Below are positions 2,276-38,341 of a DNA stretch of 64,000 bases, one piece after another. Location: positions 62,001-126,000 of the IMG/VR virus record IMGVR_UViG_3300027801_002517; one strand, written 5' to 3'. The notes beneath the pieces were generated by a model that did not search any database, was not told the origin of the DNA, and saw only the letters and a list, made by a program, of their open reading frames with translations. A program made the position numbers and the translations under genes. The DNA is from a virus. Each line of letters opens with the position of its first letter. Position 1 is the stretch's first letter.

Positions 2276-3282
2276 TATTTTATAACTCCATAAGCTACAT
2301 CAAAAACTTCATTCCAGTTGTTAATAAACTTTTGTTCCGAGAAATTTGTTAGTATAGTACCACGAGCTTCAGCACCCATTTTATTTCTAAGCTCTTCATC
2401 CTCTAACAATTGCTTACAATATCCTCTTAGTTCTTCTTCGTCGTTAGACATAAATCCATTGACACCATGTTCTATAATTTCTGGAATCATACATGTAGCC
2501 GTTGTTACAATTGCACAACCACAAGACATAGCTTCTAACAACGCCGTTGGAACTGGACTGATAGTCGATGTGTTTAAGAATACCTGAGAGGTAGCATATT
2601 CTTTAGCTAACTCTTTTACTGAAGGTGCAGGCTCACTCAAACCTTCTGTTTTACCAACAATTTTAGTTTGAAATGCTCGACCTTCATCGGTAATTCTGAC
2701 ATAACCTTGCCAGTTACAACAATAATCTCTATTGATCCAATCATTAACAACACTCAGTACATGCGGTTGTTTTTTTTGTTCATCAGATTGGTTTGGGTGA
2801 AACAAATCAGTATCAACTGAATGATGAATAACACGAGTACTTACTGCGTCCATATTCCATTTGTTAACAGAATAATCAGAAATGAAAACATTTATATCAC
2901 CTTGTTGTTTTTTAAATGCTTCCAGTTGTTCATTGGGCCAACTCGGAATTGGTAGAGTGTGCTCTAAAGAAACTAACGGTAACTTGAATATTGAATTAAT
3001 ATTTTGAGATATACCAAATTGACCAAATTTGCTTTGAGAAATTATAAAATCATAATCAATTCCAGCTTGTATAGAATTTTGTGGCATTACATAGTGATTG
3101 TCCGGCATATCTCCATAAGATTTATCCCACTCTTTTCCACCATCATGTCTAAAGATGTAAAAGTTATGACCTGTCTTTGCCAGTTGGGTCTGATACCTTT
3201 CATGTGTATCAAACGTGATGATATTATATTTATCTTTCTTTTTGATGGACTTATTGATAAATTGTAATGTTTGATTACTCAC
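2275..3282 (-). CDS. GT4-family glycosyltransferase
   Basis: A 335-residue GT-B fold glycosyltransferase. The C-terminal donor-binding half contains the characteristic ALLEAMSCGCAIVTTATC with the E-x7-E type signature at about residue 248, followed by PEIIEHGVNGFM. This is the group-1 (GT4) motif that contacts the nucleotide-sugar. The N-terminal acceptor half is shorter than in free-living bacteria. It overlaps the next upstream gene by 8 bp and abuts the methyltransferase-like gene at a shared A. Role inferred: glycosylation of phage DNA, virion or host surface glycan. Confidence 0.8.
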   Translation of the reverse strand: MSNQTLQFINKSIKKKDKYNIITFDTHERYQTQLAKTGHNFYIFRHDGGKEWDKSYGDMPDNHYVMPQNSIQAGIDYDFIISQSKFGQFGISQNINSIFKLPLVSLEHTLPIPSWPNEQLEAFKKQQGDINVFISDYSVNKWNMDAVSTRVIHHSVDTDLFHPNQSDEQKKQPHVLSVVNDWINRDYCCNWQGYVRITDEGRAFQTKIVGKTEGLSEPAPSVKELAKEYATSQVFLNTSTISPVPTALLEAMSCGCAIVTTATCMIPEIIEHGVNGFMSNDEEELRGYCKQLLEDEELRNKMGAEARGTILTNFSEQKFINNWNEVFDVAYGVIK

Positions 3283-4405
3283 TTAACAGTCCTTTCATTT
3301 GCTGACCAATTTTCTCATAAGAGAACAGTTTAACTTGCTCTAACCCAGCGAGTTTCCACTTTCTTTTAGTTCCGATAGGATCTTCTTTATGTTCTTCGTA
3401 TTTACTTCTCATTGCTTGTCGTGTCTGCATTTCGCATGGTTGGAACCAGTACTCTCTGCCTGTAAATAAATCTGGGAATGCTGCATCAGAACATTTACAA
3501 ACAGAGTAAGATCCACCAACCAGTGTGCCAGAATCTTCATTTATAAATTCTTTAGGTCCACCATAATCACTACAGATAGGACTAGAGCCAAATCCCATAG
3601 CATCAAATGATGGCAATGACCATGCTTCCCCATGACTAGGACAAACAAAACAATCAGCATATTGGTGTAAGGCACAAATATGATCGTCGTCTATATTATC
3701 TGAAATAATGATGTTTGTATGGTACTGAGATGGATGGGCATACATTCTAAGGTCTTGTTGTACCTTGCCTATAATACCATCAATTACTTCTTTGCATTGA
3801 TCAGGATTGTGTCCAAACTTTTTAACCTTTAAAATTAATGATACAGGTTCTGATCTATCAAATTCACTATGAAAACAAGTGATAATTGATTCTAAATTTT
3901 TTCTGTCATTAATATCGCCAATATAATAAAACTTAAATGTGCTTTCTGGAATAGGCAAATTAAGCTCTTGATATTTTTTTGTATATCTGGATGCAGAACA
4001 TGGATGTGGTACTACATGTATATCGGTAGTTATTCCATCATTAATGAGAGATTTTTTCAAATCATTGTTAGGCACCCATAATTCGTCCATCTGTTTTAAT
4101 TGCTGTAGCCAACCGATATATTTTAGGCTTGTTGATTCTGAAACAAAATAGGCGATGCTCTTCTTAAAAGCTTTACCTCCAACTAAATGGTGAGGTAAAA
4201 CATGTTGAATACAAATATCACATCCACTACTATCCTTCTGTTCCAATTCAAGTAATCTGGGATGTATATTAGGATTGTCTTGAGTTAGCGTGACGTTGCG
4301 ACAAACAACATCGACTCCAGCATTATCCAGAGCCAATACATGCTCTTTCGCTGCAACTGACCATCCGCTGTTTTCTTTGTAGTGTGCAATATATAAAATT
4401 TTCAT
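3275..4405 (-). CDS. GT-B glycosyltransferase
   Basis: This 376-residue protein starts with the strand MKILYIAHYKENSGWS typical of GT-B acceptor domains. It carries the donor-site signature SHGEAWSLPSFDAMGFGSSP with E/D in the E-x7-E positions at about residues 260-276, followed by YGGPKEFI. These features place it in the GT1/GT4-like superfamily. A Cys pair at CKC near residue 305 is unusual. It is coupled to the flanking glycosyltransferases by 4-8 bp overlaps, so three successive transferases are probably made together. Confidence 0.75.
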   Translation of the reverse strand: MKILYIAHYKENSGWSVAAKEHVLALDNAGVDVVCRNVTLTQDNPNIHPRLLELEQKDSSGCDICIQHVLPHHLVGGKAFKKSIAYFVSESTSLKYIGWLQQLKQMDELWVPNNDLKKSLINDGITTDIHVVPHPCSASRYTKKYQELNLPIPESTFKFYYIGDINDRKNLESIITCFHSEFDRSEPVSLILKVKKFGHNPDQCKEVIDGIIGKVQQDLRMYAHPSQYHTNIIISDNIDDDHICALHQYADCFVCPSHGEAWSLPSFDAMGFGSSPICSDYGGPKEFINEDSGTLVGGSYSVCKCSDAAFPDLFTGREYWFQPCEMQTRQAMRSKYEEHKEDPIGTKRKWKLAGLEQVKLFSYEKIGQQMKGLLSE

Positions 4406-6096
4406 TCTTTTATAATACCTCTCTGTTTCATTGCGTCAAATCTCCTGTGTTCCCATTGATTTCTTCTATTGCATTGTCCTTTCATTTGGTCATATGCTAT
4501 ATTGAAATCAAATGATTCTCTAGCACCTGTTCCAGCAAATGCTTGTGAAGATTCATTGAAGTACATACCACCAGTAGAGGCAGTTGAAGATTTATACATC
4601 AAATCTCTTGTTAATCTGGCTTCAAAGAAAGTATTAAGTTTTGATGGATCACCTAAGACCTCAACAATTAACCATCGAGCAAGTTCTGCGTGGGGGATTT
4701 GCGGGACTTGTTCTGGTTTTGGTTTGGACTCATGTATTTTTGGTTGTGATGCCCATGTAGCTTCAATTGGTAGTAATTCAACACTATCAAAATACGCTTC
4801 CCATTTAGCTCCGCTTAGATGCCACTGATAATGTTTTTCAAAATTTTCTCTGATTTTAGTGCCTATGGCAACTCTTTCTTCTTCACTTTTCTCAAAGAAT
4901 TCTTCAAACATTTGTGCTGCCAAATCATTATCTGGAACTGCTCTTAAGCAACCAGTTTCCAATTCCTTATAAAGAGCGGCTGGCTTAATAGGAAAGCCTT
5001 CCAGCTTACGTAGTACCGACTCCATAGCAGAATAATCTGTACCCATAACGGGAACACCACAAGCAGCAGCTTCGACTTGTGGTAAACCAAATCCTTCACA
5101 ATTTGCATACTGCACATAAAGATCAAAATAATTCATAATCTGTGATAGATCTTCATACGAAGCACCATTTTTCACGTTAGATAATGTTGCTCCCCATTTT
5201 TTAGTATACGGAGATTGGGCGATGGCACCTTTAAAAACAGATGGGAATGGCTTCTTCGTGTCAGGGCATATGTACGTAAATAGTACATGAGAAGCCAATT
5301 CATACTGCTGAAGCAATTCTGGAATATCCCATCCTAAATCTGGATAGGAAGTATGACAATACAAATAGCATGGGTCTGTATATCCTTTGGCTACTTGTAA
5401 ATCTAAAAACTTCCTAAACGCAGCAAAAAGGTCCGGGTATAATTTCCTCCGTTGATTTCGCATCACTGTGCCGATAATCTTAGAACTAACGTCTAGACCA
5501 TTATCTAGTCTAAGTTGACGTTTGTCCTCAAAGGGCTTATAAGCCGGGTGTGCGGATGGAGGAGCACTGCCAAGATAATTAATCTTTCCTCCGGACTGAT
5601 CTTTTAAGATACCACCTGCCCAATCCGAATACGTAAAACATGCATCTGCATTTTCATAACTAGCAATCCATTGTCTAGCCTGGGGTCTTGCGTCTACTGT
5701 AGGCATAATAGCCCACTTAAAATAATCCCTGAAAGGAGACCTTTCAGCAAAATCTAACATCCAAAAATCTCGAATGTCACAAACAACATCTGGCAAAAAA
5801 TCTAAACACACATGTTCAAATATCCATTCACCAAATTGATTGACTCCATTAGAATTATATGCATCTATTTCTTCTTGAGCCGCTTTTGGTTCTGATTGTT
5901 GGTTTGGCATAACGCCATAATATTGCCAAGGTATATTTGCAGAACGGGGATCATTACGCTCACCGTAAGCAGCCATCTCTGCAATCTCATACTTGCCTGT
6001 GCCATGCAAATAATTCAATATTTCTCTTGTATATGTAGCATAACCAGTATTTAAAAATGTAGCTTCACTACAAAACAAAATTCTTTTTTTTCTCAT
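4402..6096 (-). CDS. large GT-B glycosyltransferase with C-terminal extension
   Basis: The longest of the glycosyltransferases at 564 residues. The GT4 signature NCEGFGLPQVEAAACGVPVM lies at about residue 336, and GTDYSAMESVL follows. The last 110 residues after a Pro/Lys-rich linker (KPKPEQVPQIPHA) form an additional segment with NESSQAFAGTGARESFDF that I do not recognise. I chose the ATG three codons inside a TTG-initiated reading because AGGATTG lies just upstream. It overlaps the SSB-like gene by no coding sequence and the next transferase by 4 bp. Confidence 0.75.
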   Translation of the reverse strand: MRKKRILFCSEATFLNTGYATYTREILNYLHGTGKYEIAEMAAYGERNDPRSANIPWQYYGVMPNQQSEPKAAQEEIDAYNSNGVNQFGEWIFEHVCLDFLPDVVCDIRDFWMLDFAERSPFRDYFKWAIMPTVDARPQARQWIASYENADACFTYSDWAGGILKDQSGGKINYLGSAPPSAHPAYKPFEDKRQLRLDNGLDVSSKIIGTVMRNQRRKLYPDLFAAFRKFLDLQVAKGYTDPCYLYCHTSYPDLGWDIPELLQQYELASHVLFTYICPDTKKPFPSVFKGAIAQSPYTKKWGATLSNVKNGASYEDLSQIMNYFDLYVQYANCEGFGLPQVEAAACGVPVMGTDYSAMESVLRKLEGFPIKPAALYKELETGCLRAVPDNDLAAQMFEEFFEKSEEERVAIGTKIRENFEKHYQWHLSGAKWEAYFDSVELLPIEATWASQPKIHESKPKPEQVPQIPHAELARWLIVEVLGDPSKLNTFFEARLTRDLMYKSSTASTGGMYFNESSQAFAGTGARESFDFNIAYDQMKGQCNRRNQWEHRRFDAMKQRGIIKE

Positions 6097-6098
6097 AT

Positions 6099-6410
6099 TC
6101 AATCCTGATCAAGACATGCAAAGTCAAATTCATTAATCCTAAATACTATAAAATCATCGTCTCCTGAAACATGTCTAGCAGAGCAATTGACAGTAATTTT
6201 TGTGTCTTTTTTGCCGAGTTTAGCAATTGTTTCGGCACCAGTGTGCCATGCTTCGCAATCAAGATAAACAGGAGTCCTATTCTTTTCCCCGGTACTCTTA
6301 CTTCTTCTGTAGTTATATACCACGATTCTCAGATCTAAAAAGCTAATACCATCAACGCTTCCTAATACTGGATCATCAGTGATATATCCAGTAAATGTAC
6401 ATATATTCAT
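6099..6410 (-). CDS. SSB-like OB-fold protein
   Basis: A 103-residue protein with the beginning of an SSB OB-fold: MNICTFTGYITDDPVL (N-x-hydrophobic-x-G-x-hydrophobic-x-x-D-P), then FLDLRIVVYN, and YLDCEAW at residues 49-55 matching the 'F-h-x-C-x-x-F/W' strand of bacterial SSB. It lacks the acidic C-terminal tail, although it ends in DFACLDQD. A second SSB-like protein is encoded at 35.5 kb. The start has a strong GGGGGAG site. It lies between the glycosyltransferase and polymerase blocks, so it probably belongs to replication. Confidence 0.65.
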   Translation of the reverse strand: MNICTFTGYITDDPVLGSVDGISFLDLRIVVYNYRRSKSTGEKNRTPVYLDCEAWHTGAETIAKLGKKDTKITVNCSARHVSGDDDFIVFRINEFDFACLDQD

Positions 6411-6456: not shown

Positions 6457-8028
6457 TTAAATTTCATGAATTTTATCGATAATAAAGGAATTATCTTTGT
6501 TATCTATTTTTCCGTGAAACAGAAGGTTATTTCCCTCATAAAGTATAAACTGGTATTTGTCTCTTGCTTCTGGAAATACAATGACATTATCCATTAAGCA
6601 AGACTCATCTTCTATACTAAGGAAACACATTGTTTTACCTTCTGATTTACCCTTTTTGATTGTATGATTATTCAGCCTATTGATATTTGCCGCAATAGAA
6701 ATATCTTTACCAGTTTTCCCGTTGAGAATATCTTTACAACTTGTATTACCCAAGGATGTATCAGACGACTCTACTTTAGATAGTGATATCGGACATCCCA
6801 AAAACTTAATCTCTTGCTCAATGATCCAACTTGGATCATCCGCTAAATCATATGGAGGATTTATAAGAAGTTCAATTTCACCCTCAACGATTTGGCTTCT
6901 ATTCATATTATGGCATCCACCACCATTCTTTTTTGTCGGATGTAACTCCTTAAAGCACTGACTTAAAGTCTTCCAGTGTTTCCGCTCATAATTTGTAGTT
7001 ACCCACTTCATTTCTGACTTAGTTAATTCTTTATAGATCAGATACTCATACAATGCCCTGTTTCTTGATACTCCAGTGGATTTCATAGAGAAAAACCCAA
7101 TAGAACATAAAGATTTAAATGCAGTAGAATTTATTTTACCAGCTATATAAATAAGGACATCCATCCAAGTGAATTGTTTTACAGATTTTCCACTTTCTTC
7201 TTCAGCTTGCTTTATACATTCAATAACTTTATCACCTGTAACACCTGTTAGAGACTTGATATCTTTAATTCCAAAGTAAATATATTTTCCATCTATATTA
7301 AACTTTGAGCTAAACTTTGATAAGTTTGGCAACTTGATTTCAATATTGAACAACTTAGCTTCTGAAATTAATTCATACACTTCTTCATGAGGATCTTGTT
7401 TTTCCGAAGCATAAAACAGATATGACAGGAAAAATTCTTTAGTATAATTTGCTTTATACCAAGCACTCTCATAAGCATTGATAGCATATGATACAGCATG
7501 AGATTTATTAAATGAATATCGTGCGGACTTTTCAATCCATCCAAATATCTCCTTAGCAGATTCTTCACTGACCATACCTACTTCTTTACAACCATCCATA
7601 AACTTGACACGAACCTTTGCCATCAAGTCTGCCTTCTTCTTACCGATAGCCTTACGTAAGTCGTCAGCTTCTTGTAGATTGAACCCAGCGAGCTTTTGGG
7701 CTATTCTCATCGCTTGTTCTTGATACACCAGAACACCATGAGTAGAACCAAGAATACTTTCTAATGCATCATCAATATACGATACTTTATCCTTACCCTT
7801 CTTGCGATCAACATAGTGCTGAGTCATGGATTTGCCCTCAGACATAGCCTTAAGGGTTCCGGGACGAATGATACTAATCAATGCTGCTAACTCTTCAATA
7901 TTAGTTGGCTCAAGACGCTTAGACCATGATCGTCCCAGTTGACTTTCTAACTGGAAGATACCCTTAGTATATCCATCTTTAAATAGATTCCAAGTTTTTT
8001 CATCTTTGTAATCGACTTCAATTGACAT
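6457..8028 (-). CDS. dnaE: DNA polymerase III alpha subunit, C-terminal part (split)
   Basis: A 523-residue protein corresponding to the part of DnaE after the third catalytic aspartate. It opens with TWNLFKDGYTKGIFQLES, the conserved 'GxTxGVFQLES' entry to the fingers. It then has the dNTP-binding fingers region including QEQAMRIAQKLAGF and RYSFNKSHAVSYA, a helix-hairpin-helix-like part, and a C-terminal OB segment. The catalytic acidic triad is in the partner gene about 650 bp upstream, with an exonuclease gene between. I place the start at the ATG (MSIEVD) preceded by GGAGA seven bases upstream; it overlaps the exonuclease stop by 11 bp. No intein motif is present at the break, so the halves must associate non-covalently. 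Confidence 0.88.
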   Translation of the reverse strand: MSIEVDYKDEKTWNLFKDGYTKGIFQLESQLGRSWSKRLEPTNIEELAALISIIRPGTLKAMSEGKSMTQHYVDRKKGKDKVSYIDDALESILGSTHGVLVYQEQAMRIAQKLAGFNLQEADDLRKAIGKKKADLMAKVRVKFMDGCKEVGMVSEESAKEIFGWIEKSARYSFNKSHAVSYAINAYESAWYKANYTKEFFLSYLFYASEKQDPHEEVYELISEAKLFNIEIKLPNLSKFSSKFNIDGKYIYFGIKDIKSLTGVTGDKVIECIKQAEEESGKSVKQFTWMDVLIYIAGKINSTAFKSLCSIGFFSMKSTGVSRNRALYEYLIYKELTKSEMKWVTTNYERKHWKTLSQCFKELHPTKKNGGGCHNMNRSQIVEGEIELLINPPYDLADDPSWIIEQEIKFLGCPISLSKVESSDTSLGNTSCKDILNGKTGKDISIAANINRLNNHTIKKGKSEGKTMCFLSIEDESCLMDNVIVFPEARDKYQFILYEGNNLLFHGKIDNKDNSFIIDKIHEI

Positions 8029-8698
8029 ACAGGTCTCCATCGGCAAATGCTTGCTCAATCTTTAAATTACGATAAACAGCACGGTGAGTTTTCATAAACT
8101 TAATCATAATGTTAGCAGTATCTTTAACGTCTTGTAAGGCATCGTGAGAATTTTCTGAAGATAGTCCCATTCTTTCTCTCATCGCATCCATACTAATAGA
8201 CTTAATACTAGGGTCACCTTCAGTCCACATCCACACATTATCCATTACATCAATTTTATATACCATACTAAACAGTTTTTGTTGTTCTCTTTTATCATCC
8301 CAAGGTCCGAACTCCTTACACAATCTATTAATAATGTGCATATCGTAACCGATAATATTAAATCCTGCTGGAATGGGTGCAAAGAATGGAGTACCCTTCC
8401 AGTTATACTTATCAACAAAGGCACAAAACTTTTTCCAAACAGTTTTCAGTTGTGGTGCTTTAGCAATTCCTTCTCGCGTCTTGCCGGTAACTTTTAGGGC
8501 ACCTTCTTCAATTGGTCCAAGACCTGCGGCAATAGCCTTGTCGTCATCCACAACTGCACGTATTTCACTATTGAATGTTCCTTTCAACTTCAGATTACGA
8601 CCATCAAGTGCGATGGCAGCGAGTTGTGTTGGCTGACAAGTATGTGGATTACGTCCACCTGTTTCAAAGTCATAGACGATGATATCGCGATTAGCCAT
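8018..8698 (-). CDS. DnaQ-like DEDDh 3'-5' exonuclease
   Basis: The 226-residue protein shows the proofreading exonuclease motifs in order: Exo I VYDFETGG (D-x-E), Exo II around AGFNIIGYDMHIINR, and Exo III SHDALQDVKDT (H-x4-D), which defines the DEDDh class like E. coli epsilon. It is encoded between the two halves of the polymerase and overlaps both, so equimolar synthesis of a three-chain polymerase is likely. There is no PolC-style fusion to the polymerase and no obvious clamp-binding tail. The start overlaps the upstream stop region by 8 bp and has AAGGAA nearby. Confidence 0.88.
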   Translation of the reverse strand: MANRDIIVYDFETGGRNPHTCQPTQLAAIALDGRNLKLKGTFNSEIRAVVDDDKAIAAGLGPIEEGALKVTGKTREGIAKAPQLKTVWKKFCAFVDKYNWKGTPFFAPIPAGFNIIGYDMHIINRLCKEFGPWDDKREQQKLFSMVYKIDVMDNVWMWTEGDPSIKSISMDAMRERMGLSSENSHDALQDVKDTANIMIKFMKTHRAVYRNLKIEQAFADGDLYVN

Positions 8699-10328
8699 TA
8701 ATTAATTCCTTAATTTTCATAAGTTTGTCTAGTAGGTTAATACCAAGAACATCAAATTTAACATGTCCCAATGCTTCAAGATCAGCCATTTCAAGACCAG
8801 CAATCTTTTCATCGCTACTCTTTTGATTCACCATCGGACATACACGGTTTAACTCTTCTTTAGATATTACAACGCCTGCTGCATGTTTACCTTGAGTTTT
8901 AAACGTACCTTCCATATCGATAGCTTGCTTAAAGTACTCAGCATAATCACCTTGTAATTCTCCAACATCATTAATAAAACAATAATCTCTTAATTCATTA
9001 GAGTTATTAATCAGTGCCCATTTAATAATAGATCTATCCTCATCATTCATCGCTGCTAATTGATCTGAAATATCTGCTTCATTTGGAATACTTTTAGTCA
9101 TTTCATTCATTAAACCAAAACCACAAACACCACTAACCCTCAAAACTTCTTTTAGTGCAGATCGACCTTGTAATCTACCAAATGTTAACATTTGACTAAC
9201 ATTACCATGACCGTAAGTGTCTTTTAGATAATTAATAATGTCATCCCTTTTATTTCCGGGAACATCCATATCAATATCTGGTAAAGAAATGTGATCACCA
9301 GTATTTCTACCGCTATTGTAGAATCTTTCGAACAGCAAATCAAACTCAATTGGGTCAATTTTTGTGATACCAATCATATATGATATTAAGCATCCAGCCG
9401 CAGAGCCTCGACCCGGACCTGAGATCCAACCATTACTCTCTACAAAATGTACAATATCTCTAACGATTAAAAAATAACCAAATAATTTTGCTTCTTCAAT
9501 AACACCAAATTCATGTAGGAACCTATGATAATACTTGTCCTTATCTTGCTGATCACTAACTTTACCTTCTTTTGCAAGAATGTTTCTCCAGCCATCGCGA
9601 CATAGTTCTTTCAGATATTCTTCCTCAGACTCACCACCTGGAGTTGGGAATATAGGCAGCATTGGTTTATTAAGTATATCGTATTCTTCACACTGATCAG
9701 AAATTTTATGCAGTACATTCGCATTTTCAATATCGTTTATAAGAATTTCAGAAAGTTCTTTACTGTTACGTAGATAAAAATCATCACATTCAAAAAACTC
9801 TTGATCATCGAATAATTTATCAGACCTTAACATCTCCCTAATTTTAGGCATAGTAGTTTTCATACCTGAACACAAAATAATTCTATGTAATGCAGCATGT
9901 TGTTTATCGGTGTAATATGTTGATCGCAAACATTCTGACACCATATAAAAATCATCACCCTTAATAGGTGAATTTGCTAAATTATTCGAAGTACAAATAA
10001 GGTTACCGGCTCGACATGCATCTTGAAGAATTCTTCCATCTGGATTACCATCCTCATTGATCGAAGAAACAATCTTAATAAGATCAAACCAACCATCTTT
10101 GTTTTTAGCAAATAATTCATAATTATCAAACGCACATCCAATTATAGGTTTTACATCATACTTGTGACAAGCCTGAAAGAAGGTGACTGCACCAGATATA
10201 GATTTGTAATCACAAATACCACAGGCTTTGTAGCCATTTTCGGAACATTTTTTAACTAACTCATCTGGTTTAGAAAATCCTTTTAGTAGTGAGTAATGAG
10301 TAAAATTTCTAAGCGGGAACCAATTCAT
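8691..10328 (-). CDS. dnaE: DNA polymerase III alpha subunit, N-terminal part (split)
   Basis: A 545-residue protein with an N-terminal PHP domain (NFTHYSLLKG, then YKACGICDYKSISGA) whose metal-binding residues look reduced. It continues through the palm, with GPGRGSAAGCLISY and the catalytic pair in SLPDIDMDVP. It ends just after ALGHVKFDVLGIN, which carries the third catalytic Asp. The protein then terminates at KIKELING where ordinary DnaE continues into the fingers. The remaining fingers are encoded by the separate gene downstream. The break is therefore between palm and fingers, unlike the intein-mediated cyanobacterial split, which lies further downstream. Confidence 0.88.
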   Translation of the reverse strand: MNWFPLRNFTHYSLLKGFSKPDELVKKCSENGYKACGICDYKSISGAVTFFQACHKYDVKPIIGCAFDNYELFAKNKDGWFDLIKIVSSINEDGNPDGRILQDACRAGNLICTSNNLANSPIKGDDFYMVSECLRSTYYTDKQHAALHRIILCSGMKTTMPKIREMLRSDKLFDDQEFFECDDFYLRNSKELSEILINDIENANVLHKISDQCEEYDILNKPMLPIFPTPGGESEEEYLKELCRDGWRNILAKEGKVSDQQDKDKYYHRFLHEFGVIEEAKLFGYFLIVRDIVHFVESNGWISGPGRGSAAGCLISYMIGITKIDPIEFDLLFERFYNSGRNTGDHISLPDIDMDVPGNKRDDIINYLKDTYGHGNVSQMLTFGRLQGRSALKEVLRVSGVCGFGLMNEMTKSIPNEADISDQLAAMNDEDRSIIKWALINNSNELRDYCFINDVGELQGDYAEYFKQAIDMEGTFKTQGKHAAGVVISKEELNRVCPMVNQKSSDEKIAGLEMADLEALGHVKFDVLGINLLDKLMKIKELING

Positions 10329-10339
10329 TTCCTATTTCC

Positions 10340-11380
10340 TTAACCGGGAGCTTCGTAATAGCCAATTGAAAAACCTTTTCGAGTACAATCCTTAACAGTC
10401 TTATCCATTCCATGTGTTTTTAGATTATCATGCACATATTCACACATACTCTTGTCTGAGCCTTCCCATTTATTTTTACAGAAATGGCATAGGCTTTTAC
10501 ACTTGAAACTTTTTCTATTTACATCTAATAACTTGGGATTTTGATTATTCTTAATCTCTTCAAATCTGTCTTTCAGCATACCCAAAAATCTTGTTTCATC
10601 TGATTTATCAAATGCTAAACTAAATGGATATGGATCAATCTTACCGTCTTTATCCTTACAGAAAAAGATACTCATAATTCTATTTGGAAACTCTGGATAT
10701 AATTTAGAGATAGCATAGAAGTATAAAAGCAACTGAGGATCATTTTGCATCTTCTTATAGTCTTTGACTTCCATAGTAGCCCAGTCAAGCCTGCGACCAG
10801 TCTTCCAGTCAATCACTTCTATTGTATCATCATTAACTTTAGTTACAAGGTCAATGGTGCCTTTAATTGCCAATTGCCCCTCAACTATTGTGCCATCTGC
10901 TGCTTTGAATGAAGTTTTCGCCCAGTCTTCTTCAATTGGAATGTCGAAGTGGGGTTCTGGATGGTGAATGTTTCTATTCCTTGGATCAAACTGACCATTA
11001 TTATGATTCAGCATAAGCCATGCTATTTTAGATATTTCTTTTCTATCGGCAGGTCGCCAAGGATGAACTGAATCTTTTTTGTATGCTTCAAGACTAAGAT
11101 CACAAAGTTCTTCTATCGTTTCATCTAAATAGAGTTTATCTTCATGAACCTTGATTTTGCCTGCGGCATCATCATCAACTAATAGATATTTCTTTTTTGG
11201 ATTATCTTGCTGAAACTTTTTTAGTCCAGCGAGAATCTCCATGACTTTATGTACCATAGTACCAAGTTCCGCCTTCTTACCAGAAGTTGACTGATGACCA
11301 AGCACGTATGTCATAAAATACTGCATCTCACAGTAACGCCAGTTATTATAGCTGGAACTTCTGAAATAACTTATTAACAT
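10340..11380 (-). CDS. Cas4/RecB-type PD-(D/E)XK exonuclease
   Basis: A 346-residue nuclease. N-terminal SYNNWRYCEMQYFM gives the first Cys of a likely iron-sulfur cluster and ELGTMVHKVME is the RecB motif I histidine region. IEVIDWKTGRR is the D-...-D/E-x-K core and PQLLLYFYA is the QxxxY motif. Three further cysteines follow near the C-terminus (CHFC and SMCEY), completing a Cas4/AddB-like 4Cys arrangement. Many phages use such enzymes for end resection in recombination, which fits the nearby RecA. It starts two genes upstream of the polymerase with a 6-bp overlap to the dNMP kinase. Confidence 0.8.
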   Translation of the reverse strand: MLISYFRSSSYNNWRYCEMQYFMTYVLGHQSTSGKKAELGTMVHKVMEILAGLKKFQQDNPKKKYLLVDDDAAGKIKVHEDKLYLDETIEELCDLSLEAYKKDSVHPWRPADRKEISKIAWLMLNHNNGQFDPRNRNIHHPEPHFDIPIEEDWAKTSFKAADGTIVEGQLAIKGTIDLVTKVNDDTIEVIDWKTGRRLDWATMEVKDYKKMQNDPQLLLYFYAISKLYPEFPNRIMSIFFCKDKDGKIDPYPFSLAFDKSDETRFLGMLKDRFEEIKNNQNPKLLDVNRKSFKCKSLCHFCKNKWEGSDKSMCEYVHDNLKTHGMDKTVKDCTRKGFSIGYYEAPG

Positions 11381-12120
11381 AGATTATCCTTATATAGGTC
11401 TTCGATAACGCTCTGTAATCTTTCAATTGTTCTGCCTTCACCCTGATTGTCTACAACATAGCTAAAATTCTTTTGATTATAATTTTTTGCATCTAACTGA
11501 GTTTCACTAGCATGTTCATCTTCAAACAAATCTCTATTTAACTTTATAACAATTCCACCAGCATCTTTAATAATATCAACCTCATTTGGAAATCTAACGT
11601 CAGCAACAATTGCTAATTGAGATTGTTCTGCAGCAATTCTATTAACTGTATTCTGACACCAAATTGGCTCCCACATTTTCCTCATAATGTCAGTACCAAA
11701 ATACTGCATAAATTCACGAGCTGTCATACTATCAACAAGTTTACTACTCCTCCATGTAGGCATATTGCACCATTTTAAATGGTCAATCTTTTCATTCTTT
11801 TGTTCATTTGTTCCGTATACATTTTCAAATGGAATATTAAACAAATCAATACATATCGTTTTCAAAGCGTCGGCAAAACTATACAGCTTAACGTATGGAT
11901 ACATAGCTCTTTCTGCGTAACTAATAAACTCATTGTCTTTTCTAGTGATATCAAACTCAGACCATTCTACAATTTCATCTGTTTTAATCAACAATTTACC
12001 ATCTGAAGAAATAGTATACTCAGATATCATTCCTTGTTCTTTTAACACAATACCATGTAAAATATTGGCAACAGTATTTTTTCCTGACTGTTTTTTACCT
12101 GCTATTCCTACAATCTTCAT
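11374..12120 (-). CDS. deoxynucleoside monophosphate kinase
   Basis: The 248-residue protein resembles T4 gp1-type dNMP kinases. MKIVGIAGKKQSGKNT is the P-loop, FMQYFGTDIMRKM the substrate region, LAIVADVRFPNEVDII the conserved 'DVRfpnE' motif, and NRDLFEDEHASETQ the LID region. The enzyme phosphorylates dNMPs to dNDPs, so it joins the NrdAB, ThyX, dUTPase and dCMP deaminase encoded elsewhere in the window. I use the ATG that overlaps the primase stop as ATGA; one codon upstream a TTG is also in frame. Confidence 0.82.
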   Translation of the reverse strand: MKIVGIAGKKQSGKNTVANILHGIVLKEQGMISEYTISSDGKLLIKTDEIVEWSEFDITRKDNEFISYAERAMYPYVKLYSFADALKTICIDLFNIPFENVYGTNEQKNEKIDHLKWCNMPTWRSSKLVDSMTAREFMQYFGTDIMRKMWEPIWCQNTVNRIAAEQSQLAIVADVRFPNEVDIIKDAGGIVIKLNRDLFEDEHASETQLDAKNYNQKNFSYVVDNQGEGRTIERLQSVIEDLYKDNLC

Positions 12121-13160
12121 CAATATAACCCTTTTAATTTAGAGGTGATTTCTTCTCGAATTGATTCAATAGACATATCTCCAATATCCTTCTTAGACAT
12201 TTTGGGAAACTTCAAAGTAAACAACCTGCTTAATTCTCTTTTAATTTTAATCTTAGCCTCCCTACCAGCTTGATCATTATCTGTCAACACAATTAATGTA
12301 GTCACTCCAGATTTTAATAGTTTATCTTTCTGATAATGTGATATATCTTTACCAAAAAGACCAACGCAATTTTCGACTCCAGTTTCATACATTTTCCATA
12401 CATCACCTTGACCTTCCGTTAAAAACAAACAGGATGTTTCTGTTGCTTTATCCATAGCTCGATGTTGATTATACAGATATTGTGATTTTTTAAATCCATC
12501 TGAGTATAAATATTTTGGTTTTACATAATCTTTATTTGACCGTGCTATAAATCCAATTTGTTTTCCGTATCGATTATGTGCTGGAATTATTGATCTTCCA
12601 TACATGTGAGATTTTTTATCTAAGCAATCGGTTATATTAAAATGTTTTAGTGTTGATGAAGAAAATCCTCTTTGCTTAAAATACTCTGACCCATTACTCG
12701 TTACAATGCTTGGAAAGGAAAGGTTAGTATATGTTTCTTGTTTTTTCTTATTGAAAATCTTTACCATTGTAGAAAATTCAGATTCTACTTTTTCTTCTGA
12801 TTCATCTGAGAATTCTTGATGTGAAATATTATATATCTTACATACAAACCTTAAAACATCACTGAATGATGCTTCATTTTCTTTCGATAGAACCCCGTTA
12901 ATAAATCCAAGTATGTCTGTATTATATTGTTCGTGACAACCTCTCGTCCAGCAACGCCAAGACATCTTGCTTTTTGATATTGATAGACCATGAGGATTAT
13001 CACTCGCCTCATGTATTGGACAACACATGAAGTAATTATCATCTTTCTTTTGGAAAGTTAATTCCAAATTTTGTAGTAACAATTCTATATCACGAAAAAT
13101 AATTTGTTTGACTTTATTTAAGTCTAATTTTTTATTTGCCGGTAGCTTTGTTGTATTCAT
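12120..13160 (-). CDS. DnaG-type primase
   Basis: A 346-residue primase. The N-terminal zinc-binding domain shows FMCCPIHE followed by WRCWTRGCHEQ at about residues 44-77. A TOPRIM-type core follows with CLFLTEGQGDVWKMYETG (the catalytic Glu of TOPRIM), VGLFGKD, and LIVLTDNDQAGREA (the D-x-D metal site). It is shorter than bacterial DnaG (about 580 residues) and lacks the C-terminal helicase-interaction domain, as is common in phages. The helicase gene lies immediately upstream in the same operon, separated only by a 53-codon membrane protein gene. Confidence 0.87.
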   Translation of the reverse strand: MNTTKLPANKKLDLNKVKQIIFRDIELLLQNLELTFQKKDDNYFMCCPIHEASDNPHGLSISKSKMSWRCWTRGCHEQYNTDILGFINGVLSKENEASFSDVLRFVCKIYNISHQEFSDESEEKVESEFSTMVKIFNKKKQETYTNLSFPSIVTSNGSEYFKQRGFSSSTLKHFNITDCLDKKSHMYGRSIIPAHNRYGKQIGFIARSNKDYVKPKYLYSDGFKKSQYLYNQHRAMDKATETSCLFLTEGQGDVWKMYETGVENCVGLFGKDISHYQKDKLLKSGVTTLIVLTDNDQAGREAKIKIKRELSRLFTLKFPKMSKKDIGDMSIESIREEITSKLKGLY

Positions 13161-13295: not shown

Positions 13296-14738
13296 TTACT
13301 CATCTTCCTCTATTGGAATTTCAGCACCTTCGATAGCACCTTCAGCACCTCCACCTGCTCTGAGTTCATCTCTGGTACGCAATTCTAATAGTTGAGCATG
13401 ATCTCCAATCATACGCATATTAATATAATTACCATCTAACAAACCAGAACCATGCCTAGTCTTTAGGGTGACTAGTTTTCTATTACCTGAGTTTGGACCA
13501 TCTTCAGCTAATTCTTCTGCTGACTTTGCTTTAAAAATAGAAAAAGATGTACATAACCAAATCAATCTATCAGACCCACTAACAGCATCTGTAGACTCTT
13601 TAGTTATACCATCTCTATTCAATTGTACAAACGATAAACATGGAAATTCATACTTAACAGCTAAATTATGTAACGATGTAATTTGAAATCCCAATGCTTG
13701 ATATTCTTGTATGTTATTACTGATAGATCCAGAACTCATCAATTTCAAATAGTCATAAACAACAAGGCATTTATTGGTTTTACCATTTTCATCTTGACCA
13801 ACCTCCTGCATAATCCATCGCTTAATTGTATTCATAATTTGCTCAAATGGAGCACCAGCGATTGTGACGTAGGTATAGGGAATATCTTTAATACGATCAA
13901 TCGCTTGCTTTACTTTGATGGTTTTGTCATCATCATCAGTAAATCGTCCAGTAGCTACCTCATTAATCGGAACACCACTAAGATTAGAAATAATACGATT
14001 AAGGTGGTCTTCTTTTGACATTTCAGTATCCAGCATTAACACTGGAATACCTTTAGTAGCTACGTTAATAGCGACATTATCGCCAAACACACTTTTACCA
14101 ACACCCGGACGAGCAGATACCAAATCGACACAACCCGGCCTTAGACCGCCTCCAATGGCTGCATCATATCTCGCAAATCCTGTTGGAATCCCAATTTGAT
14201 CACATTTATTCTCAACGAGAAACTCAAGATATTCCTCTATACCATCGCCAATCCTTTCCGGCTTGTTCCCAGTATCATCCTCTCTTAAAAAATCTGTAAT
14301 TGGATTTTCCAAGATACTGATAATTTCATCGATAGATTCATCACCATTTATATCATCAATATTCCTACCAATTTTATTGGTAAGTTTTTTGATCTTCCTT
14401 GCAAACTCAAATTTCTTTATTTGTGCTGCAAAGTAAAGTACATTATCCTGTTTAACCGGATATTCCATCAAAGAATTTATGTACTCTAATTCTTGATTGG
14501 AATTAATTATATCTTGTAAATCTAATTTCTTAGCTGCTGATAGCAAAGATGGCAAATCTATTTCTGCCCCATCCTTGATAATCTTTTCTATACATTTAAA
14601 AATAACCTGATTATTTTTATGAGAGAAGCTATCACTATCAATGACATCGCATACCTCAACATATGATTCTAAACCATATGACAAAATACCTGCTAGGACT
14701 GCTCTCTCAGCACCTAGATCCATCAGATTGTTAGACAT
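13296..14738 (-). CDS. replicative DNA helicase, DnaB family
   Basis: A 480-residue hexameric helicase. N-terminal DnaB-N-like helical domain (LGAERAVLAGIL at about residue 8). The RecA-like motor has GLRPGCVDLVSARPGVGKS as Walker A, then VLMLDTEMS with Walker-B-proximal Glu, CLVVYDYLKLM as Walker B, and LSFVQLNRDG as the H3-type motif. A Gly/Glu-rich tail (AGGGAEGAIEGAEIP) follows. It unwinds DNA ahead of the split polymerase and is made in one operon with the primase. Confidence 0.9.
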   Translation of the reverse strand: MSNNLMDLGAERAVLAGILSYGLESYVEVCDVIDSDSFSHKNNQVIFKCIEKIIKDGAEIDLPSLLSAAKKLDLQDIINSNQELEYINSLMEYPVKQDNVLYFAAQIKKFEFARKIKKLTNKIGRNIDDINGDESIDEIISILENPITDFLREDDTGNKPERIGDGIEEYLEFLVENKCDQIGIPTGFARYDAAIGGGLRPGCVDLVSARPGVGKSVFGDNVAINVATKGIPVLMLDTEMSKEDHLNRIISNLSGVPINEVATGRFTDDDDKTIKVKQAIDRIKDIPYTYVTIAGAPFEQIMNTIKRWIMQEVGQDENGKTNKCLVVYDYLKLMSSGSISNNIQEYQALGFQITSLHNLAVKYEFPCLSFVQLNRDGITKESTDAVSGSDRLIWLCTSFSIFKAKSAEELAEDGPNSGNRKLVTLKTRHGSGLLDGNYINMRMIGDHAQLLELRTRDELRAGGGAEGAIEGAEIPIEEDE

Positions 14739-38055: not shown

Positions 38056-38074
38056 ATTAGGCTCCCGTAAAGAG

Positions 38075-38341
38075 TGGAGATGGGGGGAATCGAACCCCCG
38101 TCCTGTATAACCACAAATAATAATCTCATTCACATGTTTAGCCTCTAAGAGGCGATCTCAGCTTATACGACAGTATATCCAGCTTGGGTTTACAGGGTGC
38201 TAGACAACCCCTACTGCTACGCAGCGAGTGCAAAACTAGTAGTTTTAGCATCTATTGTTTAGTCAGCTTTTTACGAGGCCCACTGACCAACCTCGACATG
38301 CGATCATTACCATTAATTATCAGTCAATTCCAGTCATCCCC
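38075..38341 (-). ncRNA. ssrA: transfer-messenger RNA (tmRNA)
   Basis: A 267-nt tmRNA. The 5' GGGGATGACTGG and 3' CATCTCCA ends form the acceptor stem, with a T arm GGACGGGGGTTCGATTCCCC typical of tmRNA. The tag reading frame runs from a GCT resume codon at 38249 to TAG at 38217 and encodes AKTTSFALAA, ending in the ALAA degradation signal. AATAGAT precedes the resume codon as in known tmRNAs. The 3' CCA is not encoded. The tmRNA tags nascent peptides on stalled ribosomes for proteolysis. Pseudoknot regions downstream of the tag contain AACATGTGAATG and paired stems. Phage tmRNAs are rare but documented. Confidence 0.95.

Follow-up and report, generated by a model that had tools for sequence, protein, structure and literature searches.

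The C-family replicases that copy bacterial chromosomes usually consist of a single chain, save in cyanobacteria, where DnaE is divided between two genes and its halves are rejoined by a split intein. In the PolC of low-GC Gram-positives, also a C-family polymerase, a DEDDh exonuclease domain lies inside the polymerase chain. Jumbo phages of group 2.2 encode a minimal catalytic DNA polymerase III (PolIII) alpha in two proteins from distant genes, with the NTP-binding and Mg-binding parts separated and a PolB present (Iyer 2021; PMC7824862). In the T4-like phages 25 and 44RR, 43A and 43B co-purify with polymerase activity, and the split NrdA of Aeh1 is functional (PMC2988022), a precedent showing that split phage enzymes can work. 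There are also the ‘fractured genes’ (Dassa 2009, as cited in a passage of PMC10448857), which combine split inteins with endonucleases. Here, we describe a viral locus in which PolIII alpha is encoded by two genes, N and C, with an exonuclease gene, E, between them. The locus lies in a window of 64,000 bases, bases 62,001-126,000 of a 157,369-base IMG/VR virus record (IMGVR_UViG_3300027801_002517), and its parts are as follows.

8691-10328, minus strand: N, the N-terminal half of PolIII alpha with PHP domain and complete catalytic palm, 545 amino acids (Pfam, PDB profile alignment, AlphaFold2 (AF2) with Foldseek)
8018-8698, minus strand: E, a DEDDh 3'-5' exonuclease and probable proofreading subunit, 226 amino acids (PF00929, phrog_192)
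6457-8028, minus strand: C, the C-terminal half of PolIII alpha with fingers, helix-hairpin-helix (HhH) region and OB fold, 523 amino acids (PF17657, PDB profile alignment)
8691-8698, minus strand: overlap of the N stop and E start, 8 nucleotides (nt), with a Shine-Dalgarno-like AAGGA just upstream
8018-8028, minus strand: overlap of the E stop and C start, 11 nt, with GGAG at 8035-8038

From these sequences and their relatives we infer, with reasonable confidence, that alpha-N and alpha-C assemble non-covalently into an active two-chain replicase with E as its proofreader. The phage lineage would thus copy its DNA with a DnaE-type PolIII alpha, a C-family polymerase, built from two polypeptides that no peptide bond joins. 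Alpha-N would bring the PHP domain and the catalytic palm, alpha-C the fingers, HhH region and OB fold, and E the 3'-5' proofreading exonuclease. The three would be translated one after another from a single message, each from its own ribosome-binding site, in frames that overlap or lie close to one another, so that the pieces appear together. A single-chain ancestor would have split once, at the palm-fingers linker, before both present clades diverged.

The position of the break was mapped by comparing the N and C profiles with solved PolIII alpha structures. On E. coli alpha, N begins at about residue 8 and reaches into the helix that follows the catalytic D555, to about 575, and C spans about 585 to about 1058, ending in the OB fold; the tau-binding C-terminal domain found in E. 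coli is absent from C, whose profile alignment stops there. Because N ends near 575 and C begins near 585, the break lies in the palm-fingers linker, which on this alignment is a domain boundary. All three catalytic aspartates fall in N (D351, D353 and D526 in the window), where Pfam matched the PHP domain (PF02811) and the palm (PF07733, over profile positions 1-260 of 260). An earlier, sequence-only reading of this DNA had placed the palm with all three catalytic aspartates in one gene and the fingers in another, and Pfam and profile mapping agree with it; the PHP domain, also in N, had been missed. The AF2 models of N (predicted local distance difference test, pLDDT, 86; predicted template modelling score, pTM, 0.83) and of C (pLDDT 82.8, pTM 0.61) both have bacterial PolIII alpha as their best Foldseek matches. 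PHP, palm, fingers, HhH region and OB fold are therefore all present across N and C in DnaE order, but not as the single polypeptide of a DnaE, since N and C are separate in all 183 distinct loci described below.

E matches the RNase_T/DEDDh exonuclease family (PF00929) and phrog_192, which is annotated ‘DNA polymerase exonuclease subunit’. The overlap of the three genes had been noticed before and holds, with one correction. The earlier start for C, TTG 8058, merely opens the longest frame; alignment of relatives and the upstream GGAG favour the ATG at 8026-8028, which gives a conserved protein beginning MSIEVDY. A Shine-Dalgarno-like sequence stands ahead of each start in the window's overlaps, and across the family such a motif precedes 133 of 182 E starts, compared with 13.6% of internal ATGs.

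After removal of duplicates, the N-E-C order was found in 183 distinct loci, window included, and in none was the polymerase fused. These comprise two deep viral clades and five contigs from metagenome-assembled genomes (MAGs). A search of viral contigs with N gave 79 loci, and those with enough sequence show N-E-C. A search with E added 78 loci, again N-E-C throughout save for additional breaks inside N or C, and one with the deeper lineage another 80, each of them either N-E-C or with one extra break. This deeper lineage, about 40% identical, occurs as N-E-C in MAGs of Chitinophagia, Flavobacteriales and Alphaproteobacteria, and a search of genome contigs added a SAR202 MAG contig (152,655 bases) and a short Flavobacteriales contig, both N-E-C. 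These contigs may be viral ones binned with the MAGs, so that the MAG names may not give the host. In the deeper clade (L313-L320), C starts with a conserved extension that bears a CGC(K/R)F motif and is missing in the window's clade. The PHP metal-ligand positions (N residues 9-41) look degenerate in the window's clade and are partly intact in the deeper one.

The sequence-only reading would have failed had relatives carried an intact dnaE and the window a frameshift. Neither split clade contains a fused gene, and the closest DnaEs that are fused share only about 29-34% identity. Of the 74 loci with a fused DnaE that were fetched, mostly from bacteria and some from phages, none has E within the fetched flank, and a search for fused viral kin of a marine DnaE (L163) found none. 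PolC ancestry was also considered and rejected; N and C are far closer to DnaE. A tree was built by a quick search, without bootstrap and with some long branches, from 26 split and 23 fused sequences; in it, all split sequences form one clade (Shimodaira-Hasegawa approximate likelihood ratio test 100, one change), which makes a single ancient fission the simplest explanation. It is plausible that the first break arose by insertion of a mobile element; no element common to all loci remains.

The genes are also well preserved. Among 186 fetched copies, which include a few contigs fetched twice, the palm aspartates of N, the DEDDh residues of E (D10, E12, D119, H185, D190) and the fingers motif KAIGK of C are invariant (186/186). 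Against relatives 91-96% identical in protein, the ratio of nonsynonymous to synonymous substitution rates (dN/dS) is 0.048-0.061 for N, 0.025-0.028 for E and 0.047-0.068 for C, so all three are under strong purifying selection. Distances in N correlate with those in C (r = 0.945) and in E (r = 0.916), as linked genes would also show.

E is the probable proofreader in view of its position, its DEDDh residues and the PHP metal site, which looks degenerate in the clade of the window. The alternative that survives best, although we consider it unlikely, accepts the N/C split but takes E for a separate nuclease of recombination, repair or host-DNA degradation that has lodged in the break. Other genes do settle at these junctions: HNH, endonuclease VII-like and NaeI-like genes, FkbM methyltransferases and glycosyltransferases are often found at the N/E and E/C junctions of relatives. 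For example, in L023, whose N is 93% identical to that of the window, an HNH-like gene of about 0.65 kb separates N from E, which in the window overlap by 8 nt. Distant E homologues in Bacteroides and Chryseobacterium phages adjoin terminase or helicase genes rather than a polymerase, and E is without a classical clamp motif; its conserved Q-K-L/I-F was tried as one and rejected, since across the family the pentapeptide does not begin with Gln. However, the other inserts come and go, whereas E stands between N and C in all 183 loci, as had been described for the window alone. E is also the most constrained of the three (dN/dS about 0.026), its phrog_192 family is annotated as a polymerase exonuclease subunit, and the window's clade has a degenerate PHP metal site. 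The C-terminal tail of E is conserved right to its end.

Further proteins were seen at these junctions. Many relatives in one marine subclade have a conserved protein of about 75 amino acids between N and E (L034 7423-7647), and a different one of about 60 amino acids occupies the same place in the deeper clade; neither is in the window. At the E/C junction of L015 (8395-9150), a 251-amino-acid protein that has a CxxCH motif and matches nothing in Pfam is odd for its position. A homing endonuclease in the break is absent from the window and variable among relatives.

The locus belongs to a run of minus-strand genes in the order DnaB helicase, primase, deoxynucleotide monophosphate kinase, PD-(D/E)XK nuclease, N, E, C and SSB-like protein.

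6099-6410, minus strand: SSB-like protein, next gene downstream of C (phrog_44; Pfam SSB slightly under cut-off)
10340-11380, minus strand: PD-(D/E)XK nuclease, next gene upstream of N (PF12705)
11374-12123, minus strand: deoxynucleotide monophosphate kinase (PF21448, phrog_139)
12120-13160, minus strand: DnaG-type primase (Toprim, DNAG_N, phrog_47)
13296-14738, minus strand: DnaB-type replicative helicase (PF03796, PF00772)

No PolA, PolB or beta clamp was detected in the 157,369-base record itself. Fifteen other records, 122-205 kb long, likewise have neither PolA nor PolB, and each of them has a single PolIII palm gene, in one case in pieces. Since these 16 long records lack PolA and PolB, the virus probably has no replicase but the split enzyme, which would rely on a clamp of the host. 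Alternatively, the halves could be functional but non-replicative, for instance if they acted in repair or in some specialised synthesis, or had host DnaE as their partner. The minimal split PolIII of jumbo phages, which co-occurs with PolB and is proposed to assist it (PMC7824862), offers a parallel, but the missing PolA and PolB, the setting in a replication operon with helicase and primase, and the complete set from PHP and palm to fingers and OB fold make such a role improbable here.

Inteins are another matter to consider, as some relatives carry them. At the N/C break itself none fits, because in any locus at most 18 residues follow the last matched palm residue of N, too few for the N-part of an intein; the lack of an intein at this junction, first remarked for the window, thus holds family-wide. 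Inside the halves, split inteins interrupt N at the catalytic loop GPGRG/S (the slash marks the break) in L155, L077, L079, L261 and L267, and C at NK/SH in L087, L020 and probably L122, where the contig is incomplete. The mapped interruptions, with endonuclease-like genes between the intein parts, are these.

L155 2575-5342: split intein in N at GPGRG/S
L077 5962-8251: split intein in N at GPGRG/S
L261 2897-6027: split intein in N at GPGRG/S
L267 2951-6055: split intein in N at GPGRG/S
L087 6638-9527: split intein in C at NK/SH
L020 8473-12109: split intein in C at NK/SH

At GPGRG/S the IntN part begins CFLPDTRV and the IntC part ends HTYNVEGLGVHN before the S, usually with an endonuclease-like gene between the two parts. 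Relatives with these split inteins encode their polymerase in four or more pieces. Pfam found Hint/Intein_splicing in IntN of both L155 and L087 and, in L087, a Vsr-like nuclease that lies between the intein parts, although several of these matches are weak and under curated cut-offs. In L077, C (9510-11504) has a contiguous in-frame mini-intein at NK/SH, the site that is split in other relatives. Group I introns were sought in seven relatives with internal breaks and gave no Rfam match; the GPGRG/S and NK/SH breaks are inteins. N is also interrupted, by either an intron or an intein, near the catalytic PDID motif in L164 (3230-4420, with a LAGLIDADG-like frame) and L079 (7290-8681).

These sequences suggest that breaks within a domain are kept only with an intein, and that a break in the linker needs none. 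Inteins inside the domains and none at the linker lend indirect support to non-covalent assembly. Split inteins inside N and C of some relatives might instead hint that the halves are covalently rejoined, whether through protein trans-splicing or because the message is spliced around E. This we regard as very improbable, given that N stops within 18 residues of the palm helix in every locus, that E has its own start and Shine-Dalgarno sequence, that C has no intein-like head in the window and that no Rfam intron was found in the seven relatives. We lean, somewhat less firmly than for the replicase itself, towards a wider picture in which a permanent, non-covalent two-chain PolIII alpha is a property of the whole clade, with its proofreader encoded between the chains; inteins would mend the breaks inside domains while the boundary stays open, possibly leaving the fingers as a detachable module. 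Assembly error, frameshift or a decaying pseudogene, for which nothing speaks beyond the broken reading frame itself, is refuted, and chance is excluded, because the order recurs without exception in 183 distinct, independent loci with intact halves, a full gene between them and strong purifying selection.

Some points weigh against a two-chain replicase with E as proofreader. The tau-binding domain is missing and no clamp motif was recognised in E or C, so that nothing seen accounts for its processivity; for C the motif was judged by eye in an alignment whose relevant region does not align with bacterial alpha. The Shine-Dalgarno evidence is weaker at C starts across the family (49 of 157). 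Another polymerase could lie in missing sequence, because the records are uncultured and class as linear.

About 50,000 records yielded no phage isolate with N-E-C; common as it is in environmental viral contigs, this replication system thus seems to lack a cultured model. Bacteroides DAC19 and Chryseobacterium MA9V-3 were rejected as cultured members, as their E homologues lie beside terminase or helicase genes with no polymerase. In the deposited record of Bacillus phage vB_BpsS-140 (MH884512; L322 2038-5642), a PolIII region has no annotated gene. The terminase of the phage studied here is only about 25% identical to those of isolates, and the sheath family PF04984 has no match in it. Elsewhere, the window holds a tmRNA (38072-38341, minus strand; RF00023, 119.8 bits, tag AKTTSFALAA), five tRNAs and, past the SSB-like gene, two adjoining long genes (3275-6102, minus strand) that look by eye like glycosyltransferases. 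The arrangement is not mentioned in the passages found of a survey of bacterial C-family polymerases (PMC3919608) or of one on phage polymerase swapping (PMC11348598), and no description turned up in open-licence PMC papers, most subscription literature lying outside the search. If true, a two-chain form that is ancient, free of inteins and linked to an exonuclease would mean that a C-family replicase can do without the palm-fingers linker. The way in which palm, fingers and proofreader come together could then be tested in a natural system, and plain gene fission could be compared with intein fracture inside one enzyme.

The N-E-C arrangement is a variant of a kind already known, the split replicative polymerases. 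Bacterial DnaE/PolIII alpha (E. coli 2hnh and 5fku, M. tuberculosis 7pu7, Taq 2hpi) shares its domains, their order and the catalytic aspartates, and gives the best structural matches of both N and C, but here there are two chains, an exonuclease gene between them and no tau-binding C-terminal domain. Cyanobacterial split DnaE likewise has two genes, but the break here has no intein and its site, the palm-fingers linker, is unlike the cyanobacterial one. PolC likewise associates a C-family polymerase with a DEDDh exonuclease, whereas E has a gene, a start and a stop of its own. The split PolIII of jumbo phages is alike in being a phage C-family polymerase in two proteins (PMC7824862). Here, however, the enzyme runs from PHP to OB fold, its genes are adjacent and overlapping with an exonuclease between, all Mg-binding aspartates are in one half and no PolB was found in the 16 records. 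In T4 relatives the gene of a replication enzyme is also divided, but by a homing endonuclease or an untranslated stretch and in single phages, rather than by a proofreading-type exonuclease across a clade. ‘Fractured genes’, so far as the passage of PMC10448857 describes them, resemble this locus in being in pieces with a nuclease gene between, and such genes are present inside N and C of relatives; in contrast, the N/C break has no intein and its nuclease is a DEDDh exonuclease, not a homing endonuclease. The sequence-only reading, which suggested a three-subunit polymerase-exonuclease assembled non-covalently in an arrangement unlike usual phage DNA polymerases, is supported, although a split phage PolIII alpha is not wholly unprecedented, because a minimal, differently divided form is described in jumbo phages (PMC7824862).

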